Of a stretch of 33,261 nt of DNA, positions 7,389 to 24,567 are shown one piece after another; position 1 is the stretch's first letter, and every line of letters begins with the position of its first letter. The translations under genes were made by a program, and so were the position numbers. The notes under the pieces are model-generated. The model was not told the origin of the DNA, did no database searches, and worked only from the letters and a program-made list of their open reading frames with translations. Source of the stretch: a virus; IMG/VR virus record IMGVR_UViG_3300046002_004610, positions 1 to 33,261 of that record; one strand, written 5' to 3'.

Positions 7389-9788
7389 ATGATGAAAGAT
7401 TCAGCAGTTCTCAAGCGTTCCATGTTTTCTGATAAGTTGCCCAAGTCTGTGCGCAACAGCGGAATCATGGCTGGGTTTGAAGATGACGAGATGTTGGAGC
7501 CTCCAGAGCAAAATGAGATGCCTCAGATGGCGCGTACGCCACAAAATCCAGAAATCTTGATGAACAACATGCGGGGCGACATGCGCTCTGTTGATGCACG
7601 GTACCAAGAGCTTGCCCAGATGGTGGGCGAAGAAGCTGCTCAGGAGACTCCTCCTGAAGTCTTGGCCATGCTTCAAATGCAGTTTGGGCAGCAGCAGGGA
7701 GGTATTGGTGCGTTGCCGCAAGGCGCGGGCATGATGCCTCCTCCAATGGGCGGTGGCGAACCCATGGGAGCACCCGGCGGGGCCCCTGCAATGCCCTCCC
7801 CACAAGGAGCTATGCCGCCCGGCATGGAGAGTGCTCCCCCTTTCCCTCAAGGCGGGGCTGAACAGGCTCCGCCTACCCCTGATGGCATGCCTCCAATGCA
7901 GGCAGCGGCAGGTGCGTTTGTCAATGCTGGCACCCGTGCTGCGCAATTTATTGCGGATAAAGCTTCAACGTACGGCCCACGTGTAAATCAGTATCTGGGC
8001 AATTTGATGATGTCGCCACAGCCAACAATTCAGCGCCTGACCGGCGGCCAGCCTGCAATGAATTTGACTCGTCAAGGGGCACAGTCGTTGGTACAAAACC
8101 CTGTGACAGGTGAAATTGTGCAGGGCACAGGCACCAAACTGGCCCCGTACACCACAATGGGGGGCTTGCAGTCACCCACCCTTACACAAGGTATCAGCCA
8201 AGGTGTTGAGCGTTTGGCGGCGGAATACCCACGCGCTGCTTCTCTGATGGCTCCTGTTGCTGCGGCATTCACTGCTGCCGCTGGTCCGATGCTGGATAAC
8301 CCTTCTGCGTCTACTCCGATGACACCGGAGCAGCAGGCCAAGTACGATGCCACCATGGCACAGATTGATGCTGTCAATCGTCCCGCTCGTATGCAAGGCA
8401 TGGAAAATGTAAAGAAGGGTGAAATAGGGAAAAACATTCCCACCGTCTTTACCCCCGATCCACGCCCCGCCTTTATTGGTGGCGGACCGTTTGATGGTGT
8501 GACCCCAATCCCAATGTCAGAAACAACGGAAGAAGCACCGGCAACAACCGAGGACTTCATTAACCAGAACTTGGCCAAGCCTCAGTTTAAAGAGCTGAGC
8601 CGTATTGAACGCATCAAAGCCGCTCAGGAAGAGTACACGCCGTTGTACAAAGAACTGATTGGTGATTCAAATGAGGATGCCAAAACAAATGCAATGCTGC
8701 TTTTGGCCGATGCCGGATTTAAGCTGGCCTCAACTTACAGGCCTACGCTTGCCATGGCCGTTTCCGAAGCAGCAAAAGATCTTCCACGTGGCTTTGCAAA
8801 CATCATTGCACAGGCCAAGGATCGCGACATCAAGCTCAAGACCGCAGCACTTACTCAAGCCATCTCCGATGTGCAAGAGCAAGACAAATACGCTCAGGCG
8901 CTCAAGTTGCAAATTCTTAAAGGCGACTACGACCTGCTTAAGACACAAGCCAAAGAAGGCGCTGTTGTCATGGAAGATGCGGGCTTGGGCGGTCGAGTAT
9001 CCAAGACTAAGTCAGGCAGCTTTGTTGGTTTTAGTTTAGACCCGAAAGATCCCGCAGTTACTTCCGCCCTCAGCAGCCGATACACGCTACGTGACACAGA
9101 CAACCCGTTTGTGATGAACCGTGGTGAAGCTCCTACAACTGTTGAGACCAATAAAGACGAACGGGTCAAGCTGGGTAATGCCTTGCGTAACATTGACAGC
9201 AATTTGGCAACAATCGACAACATGAAGGGCACTGTAGAGAGGGCCTATAGCCCCGGCACATGGTTCGCGGACAAAGTCAACAACATCTTCGTTCCTATCT
9301 CTGGTGGACTGATCAAGCCAAACTTTGATACCGCTGGCGCGGTTACACAACTGAAAAATGACTTCAGTAGGGTAACCAAGAACTCTGCCGCTGCCGCTGA
9401 ATCAGGACGCATTTCCAATCAGCAACAAGAGTGGGAGCGCGAGAACGCAGGCATGTTGGCCAACCCCGCAGGCTTCTTTGAGAACCCTGAATTGGCTGCA
9501 AAGAACCTCACATCATTGGAAGCCACAAACCGCAATATGCGTCAGCAGATCCTGACTCAGTTGGGCTATGAGAAGAACGACTACGTGATGACTGCCCCTA
9601 ACACTGGAACAAAGAACGATCCTTACCAGATCAGTTCCGATCCAAGGGAGCAGCAGATCATGTTTAACTTCCTTGGCAGTACCTTTGGTCGAGTACAAGA
9701 CCCCAAAGCAGTCGTGTACCTGAGACTGCCCAATGGTAAAGTGGATGCATTCAATCCCTCTCAATTGCGTGCACAAACAGGACGTTAA
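7389..9788 (+). CDS. Large virion-associated protein, Met/Pro/Gly-rich linker plus helical C-terminal half
   Basis: 799 aa; AAGGAAAC at 7381-7388 is the ribosome site just before the tandem ATGATG. Residues about 1-100 are acidic and helical (MARTPQNPEILMNNMRGDMR). Residues about 105-170 form a disordered Met/Pro/Gly/Gln linker. The C-terminal half (about 380-799) is regular alpha-helical sequence with blocks such as EEYTPLYKELIGDSNEDAK and SRVTKNSAAAAESGRISNQQ. The position between the Gln-rich protein and the 1139-aa protein suggests a virion or ejection complex component. No enzymatic motif was recognised. Confidence 0.55.
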   Translation: MMKDSAVLKRSMFSDKLPKSVRNSGIMAGFEDDEMLEPPEQNEMPQMARTPQNPEILMNNMRGDMRSVDARYQELAQMVGEEAAQETPPEVLAMLQMQFGQQQGGIGALPQGAGMMPPPMGGGEPMGAPGGAPAMPSPQGAMPPGMESAPPFPQGGAEQAPPTPDGMPPMQAAAGAFVNAGTRAAQFIADKASTYGPRVNQYLGNLMMSPQPTIQRLTGGQPAMNLTRQGAQSLVQNPVTGEIVQGTGTKLAPYTTMGGLQSPTLTQGISQGVERLAAEYPRAASLMAPVAAAFTAAAGPMLDNPSASTPMTPEQQAKYDATMAQIDAVNRPARMQGMENVKKGEIGKNIPTVFTPDPRPAFIGGGPFDGVTPIPMSETTEEAPATTEDFINQNLAKPQFKELSRIERIKAAQEEYTPLYKELIGDSNEDAKTNAMLLLADAGFKLASTYRPTLAMAVSEAAKDLPRGFANIIAQAKDRDIKLKTAALTQAISDVQEQDKYAQALKLQILKGDYDLLKTQAKEGAVVMEDAGLGGRVSKTKSGSFVGFSLDPKDPAVTSALSSRYTLRDTDNPFVMNRGEAPTTVETNKDERVKLGNALRNIDSNLATIDNMKGTVERAYSPGTWFADKVNNIFVPISGGLIKPNFDTAGAVTQLKNDFSRVTKNSAAAAESGRISNQQQEWERENAGMLANPAGFFENPELAAKNLTSLEATNRNMRQQILTQLGYEKNDYVMTAPNTGTKNDPYQISSDPREQQIMFNFLGSTFGRVQDPKAVVYLRLPNGKVDAFNPSQLRAQTGR

Positions 9789-12700
9789 ATGGCCACTCTC
9801 ACAAACACTCGCGGCGAAACAATTGACCTGACCACCGGAGACGTTGTGGGACGCGTGGAGGGTGCACCTGTTGAAGCTGAGCCACGGAAAACGAAACAAG
9901 AGACCCCCTCTTCGGCAATGGACACCGTCAACCAGTTGTCGTGGGGGTTTAACTCTGCACTTTTTGCTCTGCCTGATGCCGCTCAAAGAGCGATTGGTAG
10001 TGGATTGGGAATGAAAGAAGACGAAATCTTTCAATTCACCCGACTATTTAATAAAGGGGAGAAAGCTCCCCAAAACACGGTAGACCGCTACACCCGCGCC
10101 GTTGGCGAAGGTGTGGGCGGAACTCTGCCATTCACAGGAATTTTGGCGTGGGCAGCGAAAAGTCGCCCACTTATCACTGCTGCCCAAACCTCGGGCACAG
10201 GAATCTTAAAAGGAATTGCAAATGACGCTATCAGCTTTGTTCAAAAAAATCCAAGGCTCGCTGCTGCAACTGACATCGCGTTTGGTGCAGGTTACGAAGG
10301 ATTTCGCCAAGCGGTGGAAGAAAACGTCAGCGACGACAACCCCAACAAAGGACTCTACACCGAGCTGATGCCCATGGCGGCATTCATGGGCCTGCCCCTT
10401 GCAATGCAGCTCAGCCCTACCCGTGGCGCTGCCAAAGCGGTTGGAGACAAGGTCAGCGGATTTATTCCAAGGAAGGCCGACCTTGGTGCAGTGGAGCAAG
10501 AGGCGATTGAATCGCTCCCCGGTGTCTACAACCTCCCCGTTATTAACATTGTTCCCCGCATGCTGATGAAACGTGCAGAGAGCAAGTTGGAAAAGGTGTT
10601 TGGACCAATCGCCGAGAGCCCCGAAGCACAACAAGCGCTTGCTCAATTGCAGTCCCATTTGGCTGACCCACGAGTGGCAGATGTGTTCTTGGTGGGCGGC
10701 AAACCAACCTTTGACGTGGCTGAGCAGACCATGTTTGGTCCGTTGTTGACAGAGAAAGCAAAACTACTTGAGCAGCTTGGACCTAAGGAGTTGGCCAGCG
10801 TCAAGCTGCGAATTTCTGAGAACCAGCAAAAGCTCAATAGCCTGTTCCAGTCCTTTGCACCCGAGGCACGTAAGCCCATTGAAGAAGCGTTCATGGCTGC
10901 TCAGGCTGACCGGCAAGCGTTCTTTGAAGGCATGCTGAAACAGAAGTCTGACCTGACTGCTGCGGAAGTTGCAGCGGTGTCCGAGCGCCTTGGACCACAG
11001 GACATCAGCAACCTCAACAACGAGTTGCGTGGGGTGTTGATGGCCAACATGGAAATGAGCGCTGGTCAACGTCGTGGCATTTTGCGTAGGATGGGCATGA
11101 CTGAAGGCATGACCGAGGAAGGCTTACCGCTGGCCACGCGCCAAGATGGTAAATCCTTGTTTGATTCTCAGGACATGGAAAATGCTGCGACAAAGCTGAT
11201 TGAAAAATACAAGCCTGAGCGCCCATCTTTGAGCGTTCAAATCCCTGAGCCTATTCGCCTGTTGGAGCGCTTCGTTAAATCTCAACAAGTTGCTCGCGAA
11301 AAGATGGAAAACGACATGCTGGGTCAGTTGACCAAGCAAGCTATTGATGAGCAATTTAAGCTGATTGGATATCGACCCGGTGGGGAAGATGAAAAAGCAT
11401 ATGTAGATGCCATCTTAAGCGTGGTCCGTGGAGAGAAGACCAAGGCAGGAAAGCGCAAAGCTACGCTTGCTGAACTGGCTCCTGCTGCCAACGAGCAGGG
11501 CATCGTTCGTTTTCCAACGGCTATTCCCGGTCGCAAGATTGAAATTAATCCGGAAAAGATCAGGGCCGATGCCAAGCAGATTGCTGAAGCCAACACCCAA
11601 GTGGACATCAACGTCCCCGAGGCGCTGGATTACTTGGCTGCTGCACAGCGTTTCCGCAACGATTCGCTCACCCGCTACAACACCGCCCTACAACGTGGTC
11701 GCACCCGTTTGACAGACGCTCAGCGTTATTTGGACACCGGCGACTCGGTGTACAACGACATTGAGAACTTGGTGAAGGAAAACGTACCAAAGATCAGCAG
11801 GAACTACGATGAGTTGAACACCGTCCTGAACGATTACAGGGATGTGTATCAACGCAATCTGCCACTGCTTACCACACAGAAAACCAAAGGTGGTTTGGAG
11901 TTCTCACTGCCAAATGAAGCATTGCTGCAAAAAGCGTTTCAAAACGCTGATAGCTTAAAGCAGCTTCAGTTGACATTGCAGAATACCCCTCAGGCTGAGA
12001 GCCTGTTGATGCGTGGCACGGTGGACTGGTTGCGCACCAAGGGTGCCGTGAACAAAGACGGCTTGGTCGACCCTAAGCAAATCCGTTCCATCTTGGACAA
12101 GAATCAAAACATTGTCAACGCCTTGCCCGCAGATGTTCGTGCAAAGGTGCAAGACGAAGTTGCCTTGGCCGATGCCTACGTTGCCCGCTTGGGTGAGTTG
12201 GATCAGCGCATGGTGACTGCAAAGAATGCAGAACTGGATACCCTGTTGTCCAAAGCTGCCCGCACCGATGCCGATCCCCGCCAAACCCTAACCAAGGCAT
12301 TGACTGATCCCGCAATGATGCGTACGTTGGTCAATGGCATGGGCAAAGACCCAGAGATGCTGGCTGCTTTGCGCCGTTCCGTGTGGGATGTGGCAACAGA
12401 AGGAGCCCAGTCCGGCGGTGCGTTGAAGGGTTTCCTTGACACAAATCAAAAGTCGCTAAAGATTTTGTTTGGCGACACGCAGCACCTGAAAGACTTAAAC
12501 ACGCTGGCTGACCTGCAACGCAGGGTCAATGCATTTGCCGATGTAACTGGCCAGATTCCGTTGTTTGAATCGATTGATTCCAGCTTGAAACGGGTGATGG
12601 GTTTCGGTGTGCAATTTATGACCACCACGGCCCGCGAAGCAATGGTCGGTCGTATCAGTCCTGAGTCAGGTGCTTTGGCACTATTGCTTCGCATGACCGC

Positions 12701-13208
12701 CAGTGCCGAGAACCAGTTGTATCAGCGCATCTTCACCAAGGCTTTGGAAGACCCCGCCTTTGCCCAAGCAATCACCCACGTGGGAACGCCTGCCCAAGGT
12801 GCTAAGGCGGCGGCTCAGTTAGAAGGTATCGGGGCGAACATGTCCCAAATCTTCAACGAGCCCCTCAGGACCACTGCCCCCGGTATTGCTCAACGCATCA
12901 TCCGTCAGGAATTGCCGCAGGAGCAGTTGCAGGGTCGTCAGGCAGACATTGGAGACATGAAAAGTTTGCCGGTTGTTTCACGTGAAACATCTGCCAAACA
13001 GATGCTCAAGGCTCTCCCGCCAGCGCCCGCGACCCGTGGCTATGAATTCAACCCCCGTGTGTCCACTACGCCCCCAACAGGCACAGGCGGCATGGGACAG
13101 GTGCAGTTGATGTATCCGTCCATGTTCCCCAACGATCCAATCAGTGGTCTGTTGCAGCAACGACAAGCAATGATTCAGGGCGGGCAGCGGCCCGTGCCCG
13201 GACAATAG
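9789..13208 (+). CDS. Very large helical internal virion / DNA ejection protein (probable)
   Basis: 1139 aa; the ATG immediately follows the previous TAA. The N-terminus has a small beta-like segment (LTNTRGETIDLTTGDVVGR), then amphipathic and hydrophobic helices (FNSALFALPDAAQRAIG, LPFTGILAWAAK, MPMAAFMGLPLAMQL). From about 250 to 1000 it is almost entirely helical and charged. Its size, helical content and place at the end of the virion gene block match podovirus internal (ejection) proteins such as T7 gp16 or P22 gp16/gp20 in general character. No transglycosylase active-site motif was seen, so no enzymatic claim is made. The coding sequence holds a perfect parS site near its 3' end, at codons 1062-1068. 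Confidence 0.55.
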   Translation: MATLTNTRGETIDLTTGDVVGRVEGAPVEAEPRKTKQETPSSAMDTVNQLSWGFNSALFALPDAAQRAIGSGLGMKEDEIFQFTRLFNKGEKAPQNTVDRYTRAVGEGVGGTLPFTGILAWAAKSRPLITAAQTSGTGILKGIANDAISFVQKNPRLAAATDIAFGAGYEGFRQAVEENVSDDNPNKGLYTELMPMAAFMGLPLAMQLSPTRGAAKAVGDKVSGFIPRKADLGAVEQEAIESLPGVYNLPVINIVPRMLMKRAESKLEKVFGPIAESPEAQQALAQLQSHLADPRVADVFLVGGKPTFDVAEQTMFGPLLTEKAKLLEQLGPKELASVKLRISENQQKLNSLFQSFAPEARKPIEEAFMAAQADRQAFFEGMLKQKSDLTAAEVAAVSERLGPQDISNLNNELRGVLMANMEMSAGQRRGILRRMGMTEGMTEEGLPLATRQDGKSLFDSQDMENAATKLIEKYKPERPSLSVQIPEPIRLLERFVKSQQVAREKMENDMLGQLTKQAIDEQFKLIGYRPGGEDEKAYVDAILSVVRGEKTKAGKRKATLAELAPAANEQGIVRFPTAIPGRKIEINPEKIRADAKQIAEANTQVDINVPEALDYLAAAQRFRNDSLTRYNTALQRGRTRLTDAQRYLDTGDSVYNDIENLVKENVPKISRNYDELNTVLNDYRDVYQRNLPLLTTQKTKGGLEFSLPNEALLQKAFQNADSLKQLQLTLQNTPQAESLLMRGTVDWLRTKGAVNKDGLVDPKQIRSILDKNQNIVNALPADVRAKVQDEVALADAYVARLGELDQRMVTAKNAELDTLLSKAARTDADPRQTLTKALTDPAMMRTLVNGMGKDPEMLAALRRSVWDVATEGAQSGGALKGFLDTNQKSLKILFGDTQHLKDLNTLADLQRRVNAFADVTGQIPLFESIDSSLKRVMGFGVQFMTTTAREAMVGRISPESGALALLLRMTASAENQLYQRIFTKALEDPAFAQAITHVGTPAQGAKAAAQLEGIGANMSQIFNEPLRTTAPGIAQRIIRQELPQEQLQGRQADIGDMKSLPVVSRETSAKQMLKALPPAPATRGYEFNPRVSTTPPTGTGGMGQVQLMYPSMFPNDPISGLLQQRQAMIQGGQRPVPGQ
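12974..12989. promoter_or_regulatory. Canonical 16-bp parS (ParB-binding) palindrome inside a coding sequence
   Basis: TGTTTCACGTGAAACA is a perfect palindrome and equals the consensus of chromosomal parS sites bound by ParB in many bacteria. It encodes V-V-S-R-E-T in the 1139-aa virion gene. No parA or parB gene is in the window, so any binding would need the host's ParB or one encoded elsewhere. The sequence identity is certain; function is inferred. Confidence 0.7.
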
Positions 13209-19423: not shown

Positions 19424-20962
19424 ATGCCAATGGAACAACTACAACAATTTCAGGACATATTCAGGGGACTGGATATTGCCTATGGGACATACGTAATTAA
19501 GGCGGAAAGAGGCGATGGTAAGCAAGCAGGAAAGGCTACGGTTGTTAGAAAACCCCCAACAGATGACCTATGGCAAAAACACCTTGACGGCGTTGATCCG
19601 AGTCTGGGGATTATTCCAATCCGGGCGGATAACACCTGCATCTGGGGATGTATTGACATTGACCAGTATCCTTTGGACCACAAAGGCTTAGTTGAAAAAG
19701 TTTCGCAGTTGAAACTGCCGCTTGTTGTCTGTCGCAGTAAGTCTGGAGGCGCACATGTTTTTCTCTTTACAAAAGAACCGGCCCCAGCGCGGGATTTTCA
19801 ACAATACCTCAAGGATGCGGCAGCACTGCTCGGAGAAGCTGGCAGAGAGATTTTTCCTAAGCAGGCCGAAATCCTTGTTGATCGAGGAGACACCGGAAAC
19901 TTTCTCAACCTACCCTACTTCGGCGGTGACGCGGGAACAAGGTATGCATTCAATGTCGACGGTACGGCGGCAACCCTCGAAGAGTTCTTTGGACTATATG
20001 AGGCGAATGTCCAAGAGCTACCGCTCAATTTTCCTGAGCCGCCTAAGCAAGCGGAGAGTCCCATCAAAGATGGCCCTCCTTGCCTACAAGCTCTTTGCGC
20101 ACAGGGCTTCCCAGAGGGGACGCGCAATAATGGACTATTCAACATTGGGATCTATCTTAAGAGGGCCGCCCCCGGAAGTTGGGAAGACAAGCTTGTGGAG
20201 TACAACATCAAGCACGTGGCTCCCCCACTACCCAACAACGAGGTCCAAGTCCTTGTCAAGCAAGTCGGCAAGAAAGACTACCAATACAAATGTAAAGACG
20301 CGCCGCTCAACAGCTTTTGCAATTCGGGCCTTTGTAGATCGCGCAAATATGGCATCGGGGGAAATGGTCCTGATGCGCCTCAAATAGCATCCCTATCCAA
20401 GTACGCATCCGATCCACCGTTGTGGTTCTTGGATGTCAACGGCAAGCGTGTGGAGCTAGAAACAGAAAGCCTCTTCACCCAAGCTGCATTCCAAAAAGCA
20501 TGCGTAGAAAAACTTAACGTGCTGCCTCCTACCCTGCGCAAACAGGATTGGGAGAACATGCTCAATGCACTGCTCAAAGAGATGGTGGAGACAGAACAGA
20601 TCGCCGAGGCCAGTGAGGACACCAGCTTGATTGGTCGCTTCATGGACTTGCTTGAAGAGTTCACCACTCACATGCAGCAAGCAATGGACAGGGATGAAGT
20701 TTTGATGGGCCGACCATGGCGCGATGATGATGAAGCCAAGACGTACTTCCGGATGAAAGACCTTGACAACCATCTGAAGCGCAATAACTTTATTGGCATG
20801 ACTGCGCCTAAGATGGCGCAGAGACTGCGCGACATTGGCGGTGAGCCAATATCGTTGCTGCTTAAAGGCCGCGCTACCCGTTGCTGGCGCATACCCAGCT
20901 TTGGCAAACAAGATGCACCATTCGATACCCAAACCACACGCATTGAAGGGAGCCCGTTTTGA
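19424..20962 (+). CDS. Archaeo-eukaryotic-type (AEP, TOTE-like) primase / primase-polymerase
   Basis: 512 aa from the ATG at 19424; an ATG two codons later (19430) is equally possible and no strong ribosome site marks either. The N-terminal domain has the AEP catalytic signatures: IDID at 77-80 (D78, D80), RSKSGGAHVFLF with H111, and DRGDTGNFLNLPYF (153-166), all as in TOTE-type AEP domains. A Cys cluster C-x8-C-x4-C precedes SRKYGIGG and may bind zinc. The C-terminal part (about 340-510) is helical and ends in a winged-helix-like segment (FIGMTAPKMAQRLRDIGGEP). It should make primers for the family A polymerase encoded downstream. No DnaB-type helicase domain is fused. Confidence 0.82.
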   Translation: MPMEQLQQFQDIFRGLDIAYGTYVIKAERGDGKQAGKATVVRKPPTDDLWQKHLDGVDPSLGIIPIRADNTCIWGCIDIDQYPLDHKGLVEKVSQLKLPLVVCRSKSGGAHVFLFTKEPAPARDFQQYLKDAAALLGEAGREIFPKQAEILVDRGDTGNFLNLPYFGGDAGTRYAFNVDGTAATLEEFFGLYEANVQELPLNFPEPPKQAESPIKDGPPCLQALCAQGFPEGTRNNGLFNIGIYLKRAAPGSWEDKLVEYNIKHVAPPLPNNEVQVLVKQVGKKDYQYKCKDAPLNSFCNSGLCRSRKYGIGGNGPDAPQIASLSKYASDPPLWFLDVNGKRVELETESLFTQAAFQKACVEKLNVLPPTLRKQDWENMLNALLKEMVETEQIAEASEDTSLIGRFMDLLEEFTTHMQQAMDRDEVLMGRPWRDDDEAKTYFRMKDLDNHLKRNNFIGMTAPKMAQRLRDIGGEPISLLLKGRATRCWRIPSFGKQDAPFDTQTTRIEGSPF

Positions 20963-21210: not shown

Positions 21211-22705
21211 CATCCACAAAATCTTTGGCCCACCCGGGTGTGGCAAGACTACTTACCTGCTCAACGTGGTGGACAAGGAATTGGAGTCGGGGATTTACTC
21301 TTCACAAATAGGCTACTTTTCTTTCACCCGAAAGGCAGCCAACGAAGCGCGGGACAGGGCCATCACCAAGTTCCCTAATCTCAATGCCAAAACTGATTTC
21401 CCCTATTTCAGGACGTTACATAGTCTTGCATTTCAATGCCTTGGCGTGCGATCGGAGGACATCATGCAGGCGGAACACTTCCGGGAGTTCGCTGCCCAAG
21501 CAGGGATTGAGCTGAGCTTGTCCCACGACACCGAAGTCGACCTTGTCAAGCCTGATAACCCAATACTGAACGAGATCAACATCGCCCGAATCAAGGGCGA
21601 GGACTTGAAAACCCATTACAACAAGTGCGGCCTAGACATTGAGTGGCACCACTTTGAGTTTGTCGAGCGGACCTACCGTCATTACAAACGTAGCAAGAAC
21701 CTGCTTGACTTCACCGACCTGTTAGAGATGATCGTTAACGAACCCGAGCGCCTGCCCATGTTGGAAGTGCTGATCGTGGACGAAGCACAGGACCTTTCCC
21801 GCCTGCAATGGATGATGGTGGAAGCCCTGACCGTGAGATCAAAGCGGACATTTCTTGCCGGTGACGATGACCAAGCCATTTTCTTCTTCGCCGGTGCAGA
21901 CGTAAATAGCTTTCTTGCCTTTGAGGGCAGCGTCACGGTCTTGAACCATTCCTACCGCGTCCCTGCCAAGGTCCATACCTTGGCCAACAGCATCGTCAAG
22001 CGCATCCGCGAGCGCCAGCCAAAGGAATGGGAGTCCAGAGAATTTGAGGGCTTTGTCAAGACCTACCATCGGTTTGATGATGTTCCAGTGGAAAGCGGCC
22101 AGTGGCTCATCATGGCCAGCACCAACTACATGCTCAACCCCATCCACGAATGGCTCAAATCCATTGGAGTACTGTTTGAACGCAACGGGGTGCCAAGTCT
22201 TTCCCCACAGATCGCCCAAGCCGTATCGGACTGGGAACGCCTACGCAAGGGCCAGCCACTTGGTTTCACCAGCGTCCAGACGGTGTACAGGTATTTAGGT
22301 ACCAGCTCCGTGGCCCGGGGCTACAAAACATTTAAGACCGGCGACACCAACGGTCTGTACACCATTGATGAGCTGAAAGAAAAGCACGGCCTGCTGACTG
22401 ATGTCATCTGGCATGAAGCTCTCACCAAGATTGCTGACGACAAGAAAGATTACCTGATCTCCTTGCTGCGCCGGGGCGTGAAGCTCTCGCAACCGCCAAG
22501 GGTGCGCTTGTCCACCATCCATGGTGCTAAAGGCGGGGAGGCGGACAACGTCATGCTGCTGATGGATCTTTCACCAAAGTTTGCCAAAGAATATGCAAGC
22601 AACGCGGACAACGTACACCGATTGTTCTATGTCGGGGTAACCCGTGCCAAACAATCACTGCACTTAGTGCTGCCGAAACACACAGAAAAAGGATTCCGAC
22701 TGTGA
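21203..22705 (+). CDS. UvrD/Rep-like superfamily 1A DNA helicase
   Basis: 500 aa; the ATG at 21203 overlaps the previous gene. Motifs are ordered: Walker A GPPGCGKTT (9-17), Ia SFTRKAANEARDR, Walker B VDEAQDLS, motif III AGDDDQAIFFFAGA, motif IV LNHSYRVP, motif V LSTIHGAKGGEAD and motif VI LFYVGVTRAKQSLHL. It is shorter than host UvrD (about 720 aa), and closer in size to phage Dda-type helicases. It probably unwinds DNA in replication or recombination; 3'-5' polarity is expected from the family but not shown. The polymerase start lies in its stop codon (GTGA). Confidence 0.9.
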   Translation: MTDIHKIFGPPGCGKTTYLLNVVDKELESGIYSSQIGYFSFTRKAANEARDRAITKFPNLNAKTDFPYFRTLHSLAFQCLGVRSEDIMQAEHFREFAAQAGIELSLSHDTEVDLVKPDNPILNEINIARIKGEDLKTHYNKCGLDIEWHHFEFVERTYRHYKRSKNLLDFTDLLEMIVNEPERLPMLEVLIVDEAQDLSRLQWMMVEALTVRSKRTFLAGDDDQAIFFFAGADVNSFLAFEGSVTVLNHSYRVPAKVHTLANSIVKRIRERQPKEWESREFEGFVKTYHRFDDVPVESGQWLIMASTNYMLNPIHEWLKSIGVLFERNGVPSLSPQIAQAVSDWERLRKGQPLGFTSVQTVYRYLGTSSVARGYKTFKTGDTNGLYTIDELKEKHGLLTDVIWHEALTKIADDKKDYLISLLRRGVKLSQPPRVRLSTIHGAKGGEADNVMLLMDLSPKFAKEYASNADNVHRLFYVGVTRAKQSLHLVLPKHTEKGFRL

Positions 22706-24567
22706 AAACCATGCCCATGTTCCCGACAATCACCGAGTGGGTGCCGCCGGAGACTTTCCCCAATTTATCTACCGCTAAGGAGATTGCAATTGACCTCGAA
22801 ACTTGTGACCCGCATATGGAATCTTTTGGGCCGGGATGGCCCCGTAATGACGGCTTCATTGCTGGTTACGCTGTGGCTGTTGACGGCTGGAGCGGATACT
22901 ATCCTGTTGCTCACGGCGGTGGCGGCAATCTTGATAAACGTCTTGTTGAACGCTGGGTAAAAGACGTACTGGCTACAAATGCCGACAAGATCATGCACAA
23001 CGCCGCCTACGACTGTGGGTGGCTCAGGGCCAGTGGATTCACCGTCAACGGCAGGATTGTCGACACCATGCTCGCCGCGCCCCTGATAGATGAGAACCGA
23101 TTCAATTACTCTCTGAATTCTCTTGGTTTTGATTACCTCAAGGAAGTCAAGTCCGAAGCTGCATTGAAGCAGGCTGCTGCCGATTTTGGCGTTCATCCCA
23201 AGAAAGAGCTGTGGAAGCTCCCCGCCATGTATGTCGGGGAATACGCCGAGCAGGACGCGGCGTTGACCCTGAAGCTGTGGCATCACTTTAAGATAAAGCT
23301 GCGACAAGATGAAGTCGAATCAATCTTCGATCTTGAGACCGAAGTGTTCCCAGTCCTTATGAACATGACCCAGCGCGGCATCCGCTTTGACCGGATCAAG
23401 GCTGAGCAGTTGATCAGCAGGTTGCAACGCCGAGAAAAAGAAATCTACCAAGAGCTGAAGTCTACCTGTGGGTCCGGTGTGGATATCTGGGCTGCGCAGT
23501 CCATCGCCTTGGCCTTTGACAAGCTTGGCGTGGCTTACGGCAAAACAGAAAAGGGACTGCCGAGCTTTACCAAAGGGTTCTTGGAAACCTGTGAACATCC
23601 TGTGGCTAAGTTGATCGTTGAAGCCCGCGAGACCAACAAGACGCATAGTACGTTCTTGCAGCCATACTTGGACTTTAGCGCCAAGACCGGCAGGATTCAC
23701 CCGCATGTGAATCAGATGCGTAATGAGGACGGCGGCACGGTGACAGGACGGCTGTCCATGGCCAACCCAAACTTACAGCAGGTTCCTGCCCGCCACGAAA
23801 TCATCGGCCCGCTGGTGCGCTCGCTCTTTCTGCCCGAAGAGGGCGAATTGTGGGCTTCCAACGACTTCAGCTCCCAAGAACCGCGATTGTTGGTGCATTA
23901 CGCCCATCTTTTGGACCTACCCGGGGCGAACAGGATGGTGGACGCGTACAACAACGACCCCAACACCGACTTTCACCAAATGGTGGCGGACATGGCTGGG
24001 ATCAAACGCAAGGCTGCCAAGACGATTGGCCTTGGCTTGATGTACGGTATGGGCAAAGGAAAGCTTGGTGGCGAGCTGGACTTGTCCGCTGAGGAAGCTT
24101 CTGAGCTGATCAACACGTTCCACACCAAGGTGCCGTTTCTTAAAGGCACGGTGAACGCGGTCATGAAGCGCATTGAGCACCCAGCATCGGGCGGGTCTAT
24201 CAGAACCCTGCTTGGCCGCAAGTGCCGCTTCCCACTGTGGGAGCCGGTAGAGTGGGGCGTGAACAAGGCGCTGCCGCGTGAACAGGCAGTCATTGAATAC
24301 GGCCAACGGATCAAACGTGCGGGCACCTACAAGGGACTGAACAGGCTTATCCAAGGGTCAGCCGCAGATCAGACAAAAGCGGCCATGGTGGCGCTCGCTA
24401 AGGCAGGGTTTGACCCTATCTTGCAGGTACACGATGAGCTTGCGCTGTCGGTGACAAGTCGGGAGCAAGCACAGGCTGCTGCCGAGATTATGGCCAACGC
24501 TGTGCGCTTGGAAGTTCCCAGCCGCTGTGATGTGGAGATTGGCCCGAGCTGGGGTGAGGCAAAATAA
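22702..24567 (+). CDS. Family A DNA polymerase with 3'-5' proofreading domain
   Basis: 621 aa with a GTG start overlapping the helicase stop; AAAAAGGA about eight bases upstream supports it. Exonuclease motifs: AIDLET (D31, E33), HNAAYD (D104) and YAEQD (Y181, D185), all present. Polymerase motifs: TGRLSMANPNLQQVP (348-362), motif A NDFSSQEPR (D388), motif B KRKAAKTIGLGLMYG (435-449) and motif C QVHDE (H577, D578). No 5'-3' nuclease domain and no DnaJ-like insertion. It is the replicative polymerase, last gene of the plus-strand replication operon, followed by a terminator. Confidence 0.95.
   Translation: MKTMPMFPTITEWVPPETFPNLSTAKEIAIDLETCDPHMESFGPGWPRNDGFIAGYAVAVDGWSGYYPVAHGGGGNLDKRLVERWVKDVLATNADKIMHNAAYDCGWLRASGFTVNGRIVDTMLAAPLIDENRFNYSLNSLGFDYLKEVKSEAALKQAAADFGVHPKKELWKLPAMYVGEYAEQDAALTLKLWHHFKIKLRQDEVESIFDLETEVFPVLMNMTQRGIRFDRIKAEQLISRLQRREKEIYQELKSTCGSGVDIWAAQSIALAFDKLGVAYGKTEKGLPSFTKGFLETCEHPVAKLIVEARETNKTHSTFLQPYLDFSAKTGRIHPHVNQMRNEDGGTVTGRLSMANPNLQQVPARHEIIGPLVRSLFLPEEGELWASNDFSSQEPRLLVHYAHLLDLPGANRMVDAYNNDPNTDFHQMVADMAGIKRKAAKTIGLGLMYGMGKGKLGGELDLSAEEASELINTFHTKVPFLKGTVNAVMKRIEHPASGGSIRTLLGRKCRFPLWEPVEWGVNKALPREQAVIEYGQRIKRAGTYKGLNRLIQGSAADQTKAAMVALAKAGFDPILQVHDELALSVTSREQAQAAAEIMANAVRLEVPSRCDVEIGPSWGEAK

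Follow-up and report, generated by a model that had tools for sequence, protein, structure and literature searches.

The locus raises the question of why an exact bacterial centromere site should lie within a virion gene of a phage in which no parAB is visible. When a canonical parS is brought into a cell with chromosomal ParB, ParB–CTP clamps load on it and spread along the DNA. The window (i.e. the whole stretch of DNA analysed, a 33-kb IMG/VR virus record of 33,261 nt) represents about half of a genome, its relatives being 52–62 kb in length. The features that bear on the question are as follows.

12974..12989, no strand assigned: exact palindromic parS, TGTTTCACGTGAAACA, predicted host-ParB loading site
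9789..13208, plus strand: 1139-aa virion protein, probable ejection/DNA-transfer protein, with parS in its C-terminal linker; longest ORF of the window
7389..9788, plus strand: 799-aa large protein placed in the same virion-gene run by its position; context only
22702..24567, plus strand: family A DNA polymerase used for phage placement (75% identity to DSL-LC04, 52% to Pelagibacter phage HTVC023P); context only

The original prediction of a canonical chromosomal parS at 12974–12989 is confirmed as an exact match. The site conforms to the 16-bp palindrome TGTTNCACGTGNAACA of chromosomal-type parS, and a scan allowing up to three mismatches finds no other match in the window. It is in frame with ORF 9789–13208, where it takes up the last base of V1062 and the codons V1063, S1064, R1065, E1066 and T1067, giving the V-V-S-R-E-T peptide that had been read from it. 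The gene is indeed the longest ORF of the window, and the location, given earlier as its last fifth, is more precisely the final 7%, in a variable linker directly before a conserved C-terminal motif (S/A-A-x-x-M-L ... P-P-A-P-x-T-R-G). One reading frame of parS contains a stop codon, one reads F-H-V-K and one reads V-S-R-E-T, the mild one; V-S-R-E-T recurs because the remaining frames give a stop or FHVK, and where the site lies in a gene, the linker accommodates it as x-V-[S/P]-R-[E/G]-T.

Searches of Pfam and PHROGs with the 1139-aa protein gave nothing above cut-off, and no cultured phage relatives of it were found by tblastn (protein) or blastn (gene end). An hhalign profile comparison aligned its C-terminus with a protein of DSL-LC04 (OR003939) annotated as ‘DNA transfer protein’ (E 1.2e-5, 46% over 54 columns), the gene of which adjoins the same helicase/nuclease pair. 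A virion/ejection role is likely. The nearest relative of the polymerase is that of the lake phage DSL-LC04 and, among other cultured phages, that of Pelagibacter phage HTVC023P; from this kinship the hosts of the ∼60-kb aquatic clade are probably Gram-negative and non-spore-forming. The polymerase and a UvrD-like helicase adjoin a primase with an AEP-TOTE type archaeo-eukaryotic primase domain (19424–20962). At the other end of the window, an ORF at 110–934 that adjoins the virion genes is repeat-rich, with repeated ‘AKYNSSGTIQWQR ... VDSSSNVYI’ units, and a tail-fibre-like role for its product is a guess.

The chance expectation first given for the site (33261/4^16 = 8e-6) is arithmetically right but post hoc, as it applies to one chosen word. 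Relatives were therefore fetched by similarity to the 1139-aa protein, blind to parS (53 relatives), and the whole records were then scanned. The parS core with two degenerate positions, GTTNCACGTGNAAC, occurs at 22 exact sites in 18 of 50 records (window included), whereas the reversed pattern gives none in the same records. Six of the ten IMG/VR relatives of 52–62 kb are positive, with one or two copies each and nine sites in total, against about 0.035 expected in these ten near-complete records (588 kb, 4^-12). Exact parS is absent from the other four, G009, G018, G042 and G036, of which G036 has a copy with one mismatch. Scans of DSL-LC04 and HTVC023P found no exact site. The exact 16-mer is also carried by a 58-kb relative from an independent metagenome-bin collection (L224 / CAIRTT010000055.1). 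This contig of the window phage family was assigned to an Armatimonadetes MAG, which probably reflects a binning error and is possibly a hint of the host. Across IMG/VR the exact 16-mer is present in at least 120 stretches vs 1, 10, 5 and 7 for four permuted palindromes of the same composition, an over-representation in viral contigs of at least ∼10- to 100-fold (loci L012–L131) that is a lead rather than a census, since some of the contigs may come from bacteria or plasmids and be wrongly classed as viral. The parS of the window is more than a chance match, given its recurrence in relatives. A chance match or contamination by host-origin DNA, which the window by itself would allow as a single 16-mer picked post hoc, is rejected by this recurrence and these controls and by the embedding of the site in a homologous phage gene across many contigs, and is left with negligible probability.

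Whether selection acts on the DNA or on the peptide is a separate matter. Within the close clade, codon conservation at parS is only moderate, ranking 28th among 342 six-codon windows. Most of its distinct alleles keep the 14-mer core intact, whereas in L002 the CACGTG core is broken and in L004/L006 one arm is broken, with no second site within the incomplete records of these three. In L008 both degenerate positions are changed to give GTTCCACGTGGAAC, a perfect palindrome of the Pseudomonas aeruginosa type (PMC4368675). The close clade is thus insufficient to settle selection, and it is the distant relatives that settle it. The site is found at the same linker in four separate tree lineages (the window clade, L156, L157/L166 and L169–L171/L180), the proteins of which are 50–60% identical and share the codon at only ∼40% of identical residues, i.e. 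synonymous sites are saturated. Despite this saturation, GTT-[TC]CA-CGT-G[AG]A-ACA is retained across all four, and the tolerated residue changes, S/P and E/G, are those for which the two N positions in TGTTNCACGTGNAACA leave room. In L169–L171 and L180 the P-V-V context is lost and the peptide is now N-V-S-R-G-T, yet TGTTTCACGTGGAACA is still kept. The fetched family loci have 25 V[SPTA]R[EGKRQ]T pentapeptides in their long ORFs, and 23 of these are spelled as GTTNCACGTGNAAC, a count that includes some duplicate fetches and reverse-strand readings of one site. In the genes' own usage, GTT makes up ∼0.2, TCA ∼0.1, CGT ∼0.45 and GAA ∼0.5 of their synonyms, and the product of such frequencies, taken by hand, gives a chance parS spelling in one lineage a p of order 0.005. 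The synonymous-codon comparison proposed with the original prediction thus comes out in its favour when the distant lineages are counted: the site is conserved as DNA beyond coding need, with some drift, both synonymous and non-synonymous, and some decayed alleles in the close clade, L002 being one case of free codon variation.

The original prediction placed parS in the largest structural gene; in the clade the site is not confined to this 1139-aa gene. Lineages without the site in that gene often carry it elsewhere. In G015, G019 and G031 (and in G036 with one mismatch) it directly follows the SLT transglycosylase domain in a second large virion protein, where it likewise encodes V-S-R-E-T, and in G034, G040, G025 and the MAG contig it lies between genes or within short ORFs. 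In two phages, G031 and G044, it forms the centre of a 28-bp perfect palindrome outside long genes, GGGCCATGTTTCACGTGAAACATGGCCC (GGGCCA-parS-TGGCCC; L205:7834-7861 and L209:328-355). A flank similar on one side to this palindrome is seen in L094. In all, at least seven distinct places of parS are found in the clade. Judging by the relatives, a second parS of the window phage may lie ∼20–24 kb downstream of the gene, slightly past the right end of the window. With copies in a different virion gene or in intergenic DNA in some members, parS is not bound to one gene, and its retention together with its shifting place is as expected of a short cis element that may act from anywhere. These observations also bear on the possibility that the peptide is what is selected (e.g. 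because virion proteins need it for processing or interaction), with the palindrome as a by-product. V-V-S-R-E-T occurs in two distant lineages as well as in the greater part of the window clade, the SLT virion protein shares V-S-R-E-T and the L002 allele is one case of free codon variation, all of which would suit such a motif. Peptide-level selection is nevertheless rejected on the codon evidence, as the parS spelling prevails where codons elsewhere are saturated and persists in the N-V-S-R-G-T lineage; the intergenic copies, moreover, encode nothing. We regard it as highly improbable.

If the DNA is what is selected, the protein that reads it has to be considered. Profiles for ParB_N (PF02195), HTH_ParB (PF17762) and ParA (PF13614) gave no match at E ≤ 1 in any of 16 family records (the window, the ten near-complete relatives, DSL-LC04 and others), and the same profiles matched in control genomes. 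The impression that no parAB is visible is thereby borne out for the window record and extended to the 52–62 kb relatives by the genome search that had been called for. A complete ParABS cassette, with cognate parA and parB in the genome, is found in none of the 16, and a partition cassette of the phage's own, including one of the phage-plasmid kind, is rejected on this basis. Phage-plasmids such as P1 and extrachromosomal mycobacteriophage prophages likewise have phage DNA partitioned through a centromere site, but they encode their own ParA/ParB. As the phage has no recognisable ParB, the reader is either the host ParB or a protein that escapes recognition. The latter could be a diverged ParB-like clamp encoded by the phage, or a repressor with a parS-like operator; diverged ParB-fold proteins are known in phages (PMC12704722), and many genes of these phages are unannotated. 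Against this stand the failure of all three profiles at so permissive a threshold, the shifting of the coding-linker sites, which is unlike operators, and the tolerated variation, which equals that of the host consensus. A phage-encoded reader thus appears very unlikely.

Binding of the phage parS by host ParB is very likely and is our prediction. The site shares its 16-bp consensus with the chromosomal ParABS systems of Bacillus subtilis and P. aeruginosa, TGTTCCACGTGGAACG and TGTTTCACGTGGAACA having at most one mismatch outside the degenerate positions, whereas the window parS is not near oriC and is without parAB. P. aeruginosa ParB binds parS variants, and the variants seen in the phages match or closely resemble those (PMC4368675). 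The core of the original prediction, a phage parS that could load host ParB without a ParB of its own, is supported by conservation in distant relatives together with the lack of parAB.

Precedents for such an arrangement exist. A passage in PMC9437464, citing Meijer et al. 2005, has the phi29 genome trapped in the spore by host Spo0J/ParB. The phi29 genome (L225) contains four exact TGTTTCACGTGGAACA sites, at 10445, 15903, 17243 and 18760, and two exact parS are found in B103 (L228; 10120 and 15611) and one in Enterococcus phage Athos (L233; 4788). The phi29 and B103 sites are apparently at shared places, the end of gp10 near the start of gp11 and gp15, and some parS of phi29-type phages lie inside virion and lysis genes. 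Meijer et al. 2005 are said to have described parS sites in phi29 as well. Scans of eight other phages (seven phi29-like, KonjoTrouble among them in part, and the staphylococcal 44AHJD) found no exact parS. A tie to sporulation is not needed, since Athos, whose host is non-sporulating, has parS and the Bacillus phages PumA1, Sarmo and KonjoTrouble (in part) have none. The window clade shares with phi29-type phages the exact host-type parS without a ParB of its own and the lack of an integrase (tyrosine integrase, PF00589, 0/16 at E ≤ 1, covering tyrosine recombinases, with the window being a partial genome). phi29 and B103 are virulent Bacillus phages of the phi29 type (Salasmaviridae) with exact parS sites, host ParB exploitation being reported for phi29; phi29 itself is a 19-kb phage with protein-primed replication and a spore-former host, whereas the window clade is ∼60 kb, aquatic, has a family A polymerase and carries one or two sites whose place shifts between genes. 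Descent from Salasmaviridae (∼19 kb, protein-primed polymerase) is not indicated, the polymerase being of family A and the relatives ∼60 kb. A second precedent is SGI1, which exploits the ParABS of IncC plasmids through parS mimics (PMC10954446) and which is a parasitic element without matching ParAB that uses the partition system of another replicon, as the phage is predicted to do; SGI1 is an integrative mobilizable element on a plasmid system, whereas the window phage carries the chromosomal consensus. In the literature searched for parS in ParB-less phages (chiefly open-access journals), the phi29 mention and the SGI1 work were all that was found. Given phi29 and SGI1, the use of a resident ParABS by a ParB-less element was already known, so the ‘unusual virus-host centromere capture’ of the original prediction is supported as capture but is not wholly new. 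What is new is a ∼60-kb aquatic phage clade with shifting parS written into virion genes.

We therefore consider it likely that the 16-mer is a functional, selected, cis-acting parS of chromosomal type that loads host ParB and by which phage DNA may be retained, positioned or partitioned; very probably the phages of this clade borrow the host chromosome-sorting machinery as phi29 does. Host ParB dimers with CTP would load at the phage parS, close into clamps and slide onto adjacent phage DNA. The phage genome would then be a partition substrate that is held and moved by the host ParA gradient (and by SMC too, where ParB recruits SMC), and an infecting or stalled genome would remain tethered to the nucleoid, or to its origin region, and be inherited at division. 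The occasion for such retention may be slow host growth or a delayed lytic cycle, much as phi29 enters the spore with Spo0J. The site could occupy any place that tolerates the sequence and, because clamps spread, one or two per genome would be enough. No lysogeny or persistence genes were identified, so a carrier-state role is argued by analogy.

The same sequence evidence would also fit a decoy, in which phage parS titrates host ParB off the origin as copies multiply, stalling segregation and division in lytic growth. The lack of integrase in the 16 family records suggests lytic growth, and with one or two sites on each of many phage genomes the host's few sites would be outnumbered; yet most genomes carry only one or two sites and not arrays, and the phi29 precedent is one of genome entrapment, not titration. 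A decoy is thus an unlikely, though not far-fetched, main function, and titration may occur as a by-product in the late stage of infection. The most likely benefit is that a phage genome at rest, or one that develops slowly, is retained, positioned and partitioned; this is favoured by the phi29 analogy, the lack of integrase and the sufficiency of one or two sites.

Beyond the clade, the parS-bearing IMG/VR records show a similar lack of partition genes: among the matches listed, ParB_N is matched at E ≤ 0.1 in 6 of 100 records, and among the long records listed ParA is matched in 1 and integrase in 7 of 34. Also among the matches listed, about half of the sites lie outside ORFs of 100 aa, and the sites in coding sequence are more often than not in the VSRET frame (41 to 17). 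A blastn search of phage records with the N-padded 16-mer gave no match, the query being below the reach of the tool. Near-identical flanks (AGGCAA-parS-TTCATATCATTT) are shared by L055, L111, L121, L129 and L037, which probably belong to a single phage group whose short-ORF or intergenic parS is conserved. Tentatively, and at somewhat less than even probability, loading of host ParB on a borrowed parS may be common in phages without ParB, mostly without integrase and including phages of non-sporulators, where it would hold and partition genomes in persistent infections.

To our knowledge, it is usually assumed that phages without lysogeny genes gain nothing from the segregation of the host chromosome, phi29 and sporulation being the odd exception. 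The keeping, moving and regaining of parS in an unrelated aquatic clade, together with the strong IMG/VR excess in records mostly without ParB, points to host ParB as a target of phages in general and, if so, phi29 would be one example of a general phage–host centromere capture. The site would then be an inexpensive marker, readable from sequence, of phages that are likely to persist or to disturb segregation, and the persistence of non-lysogenic phages in slow-growing aquatic bacteria would become directly testable.
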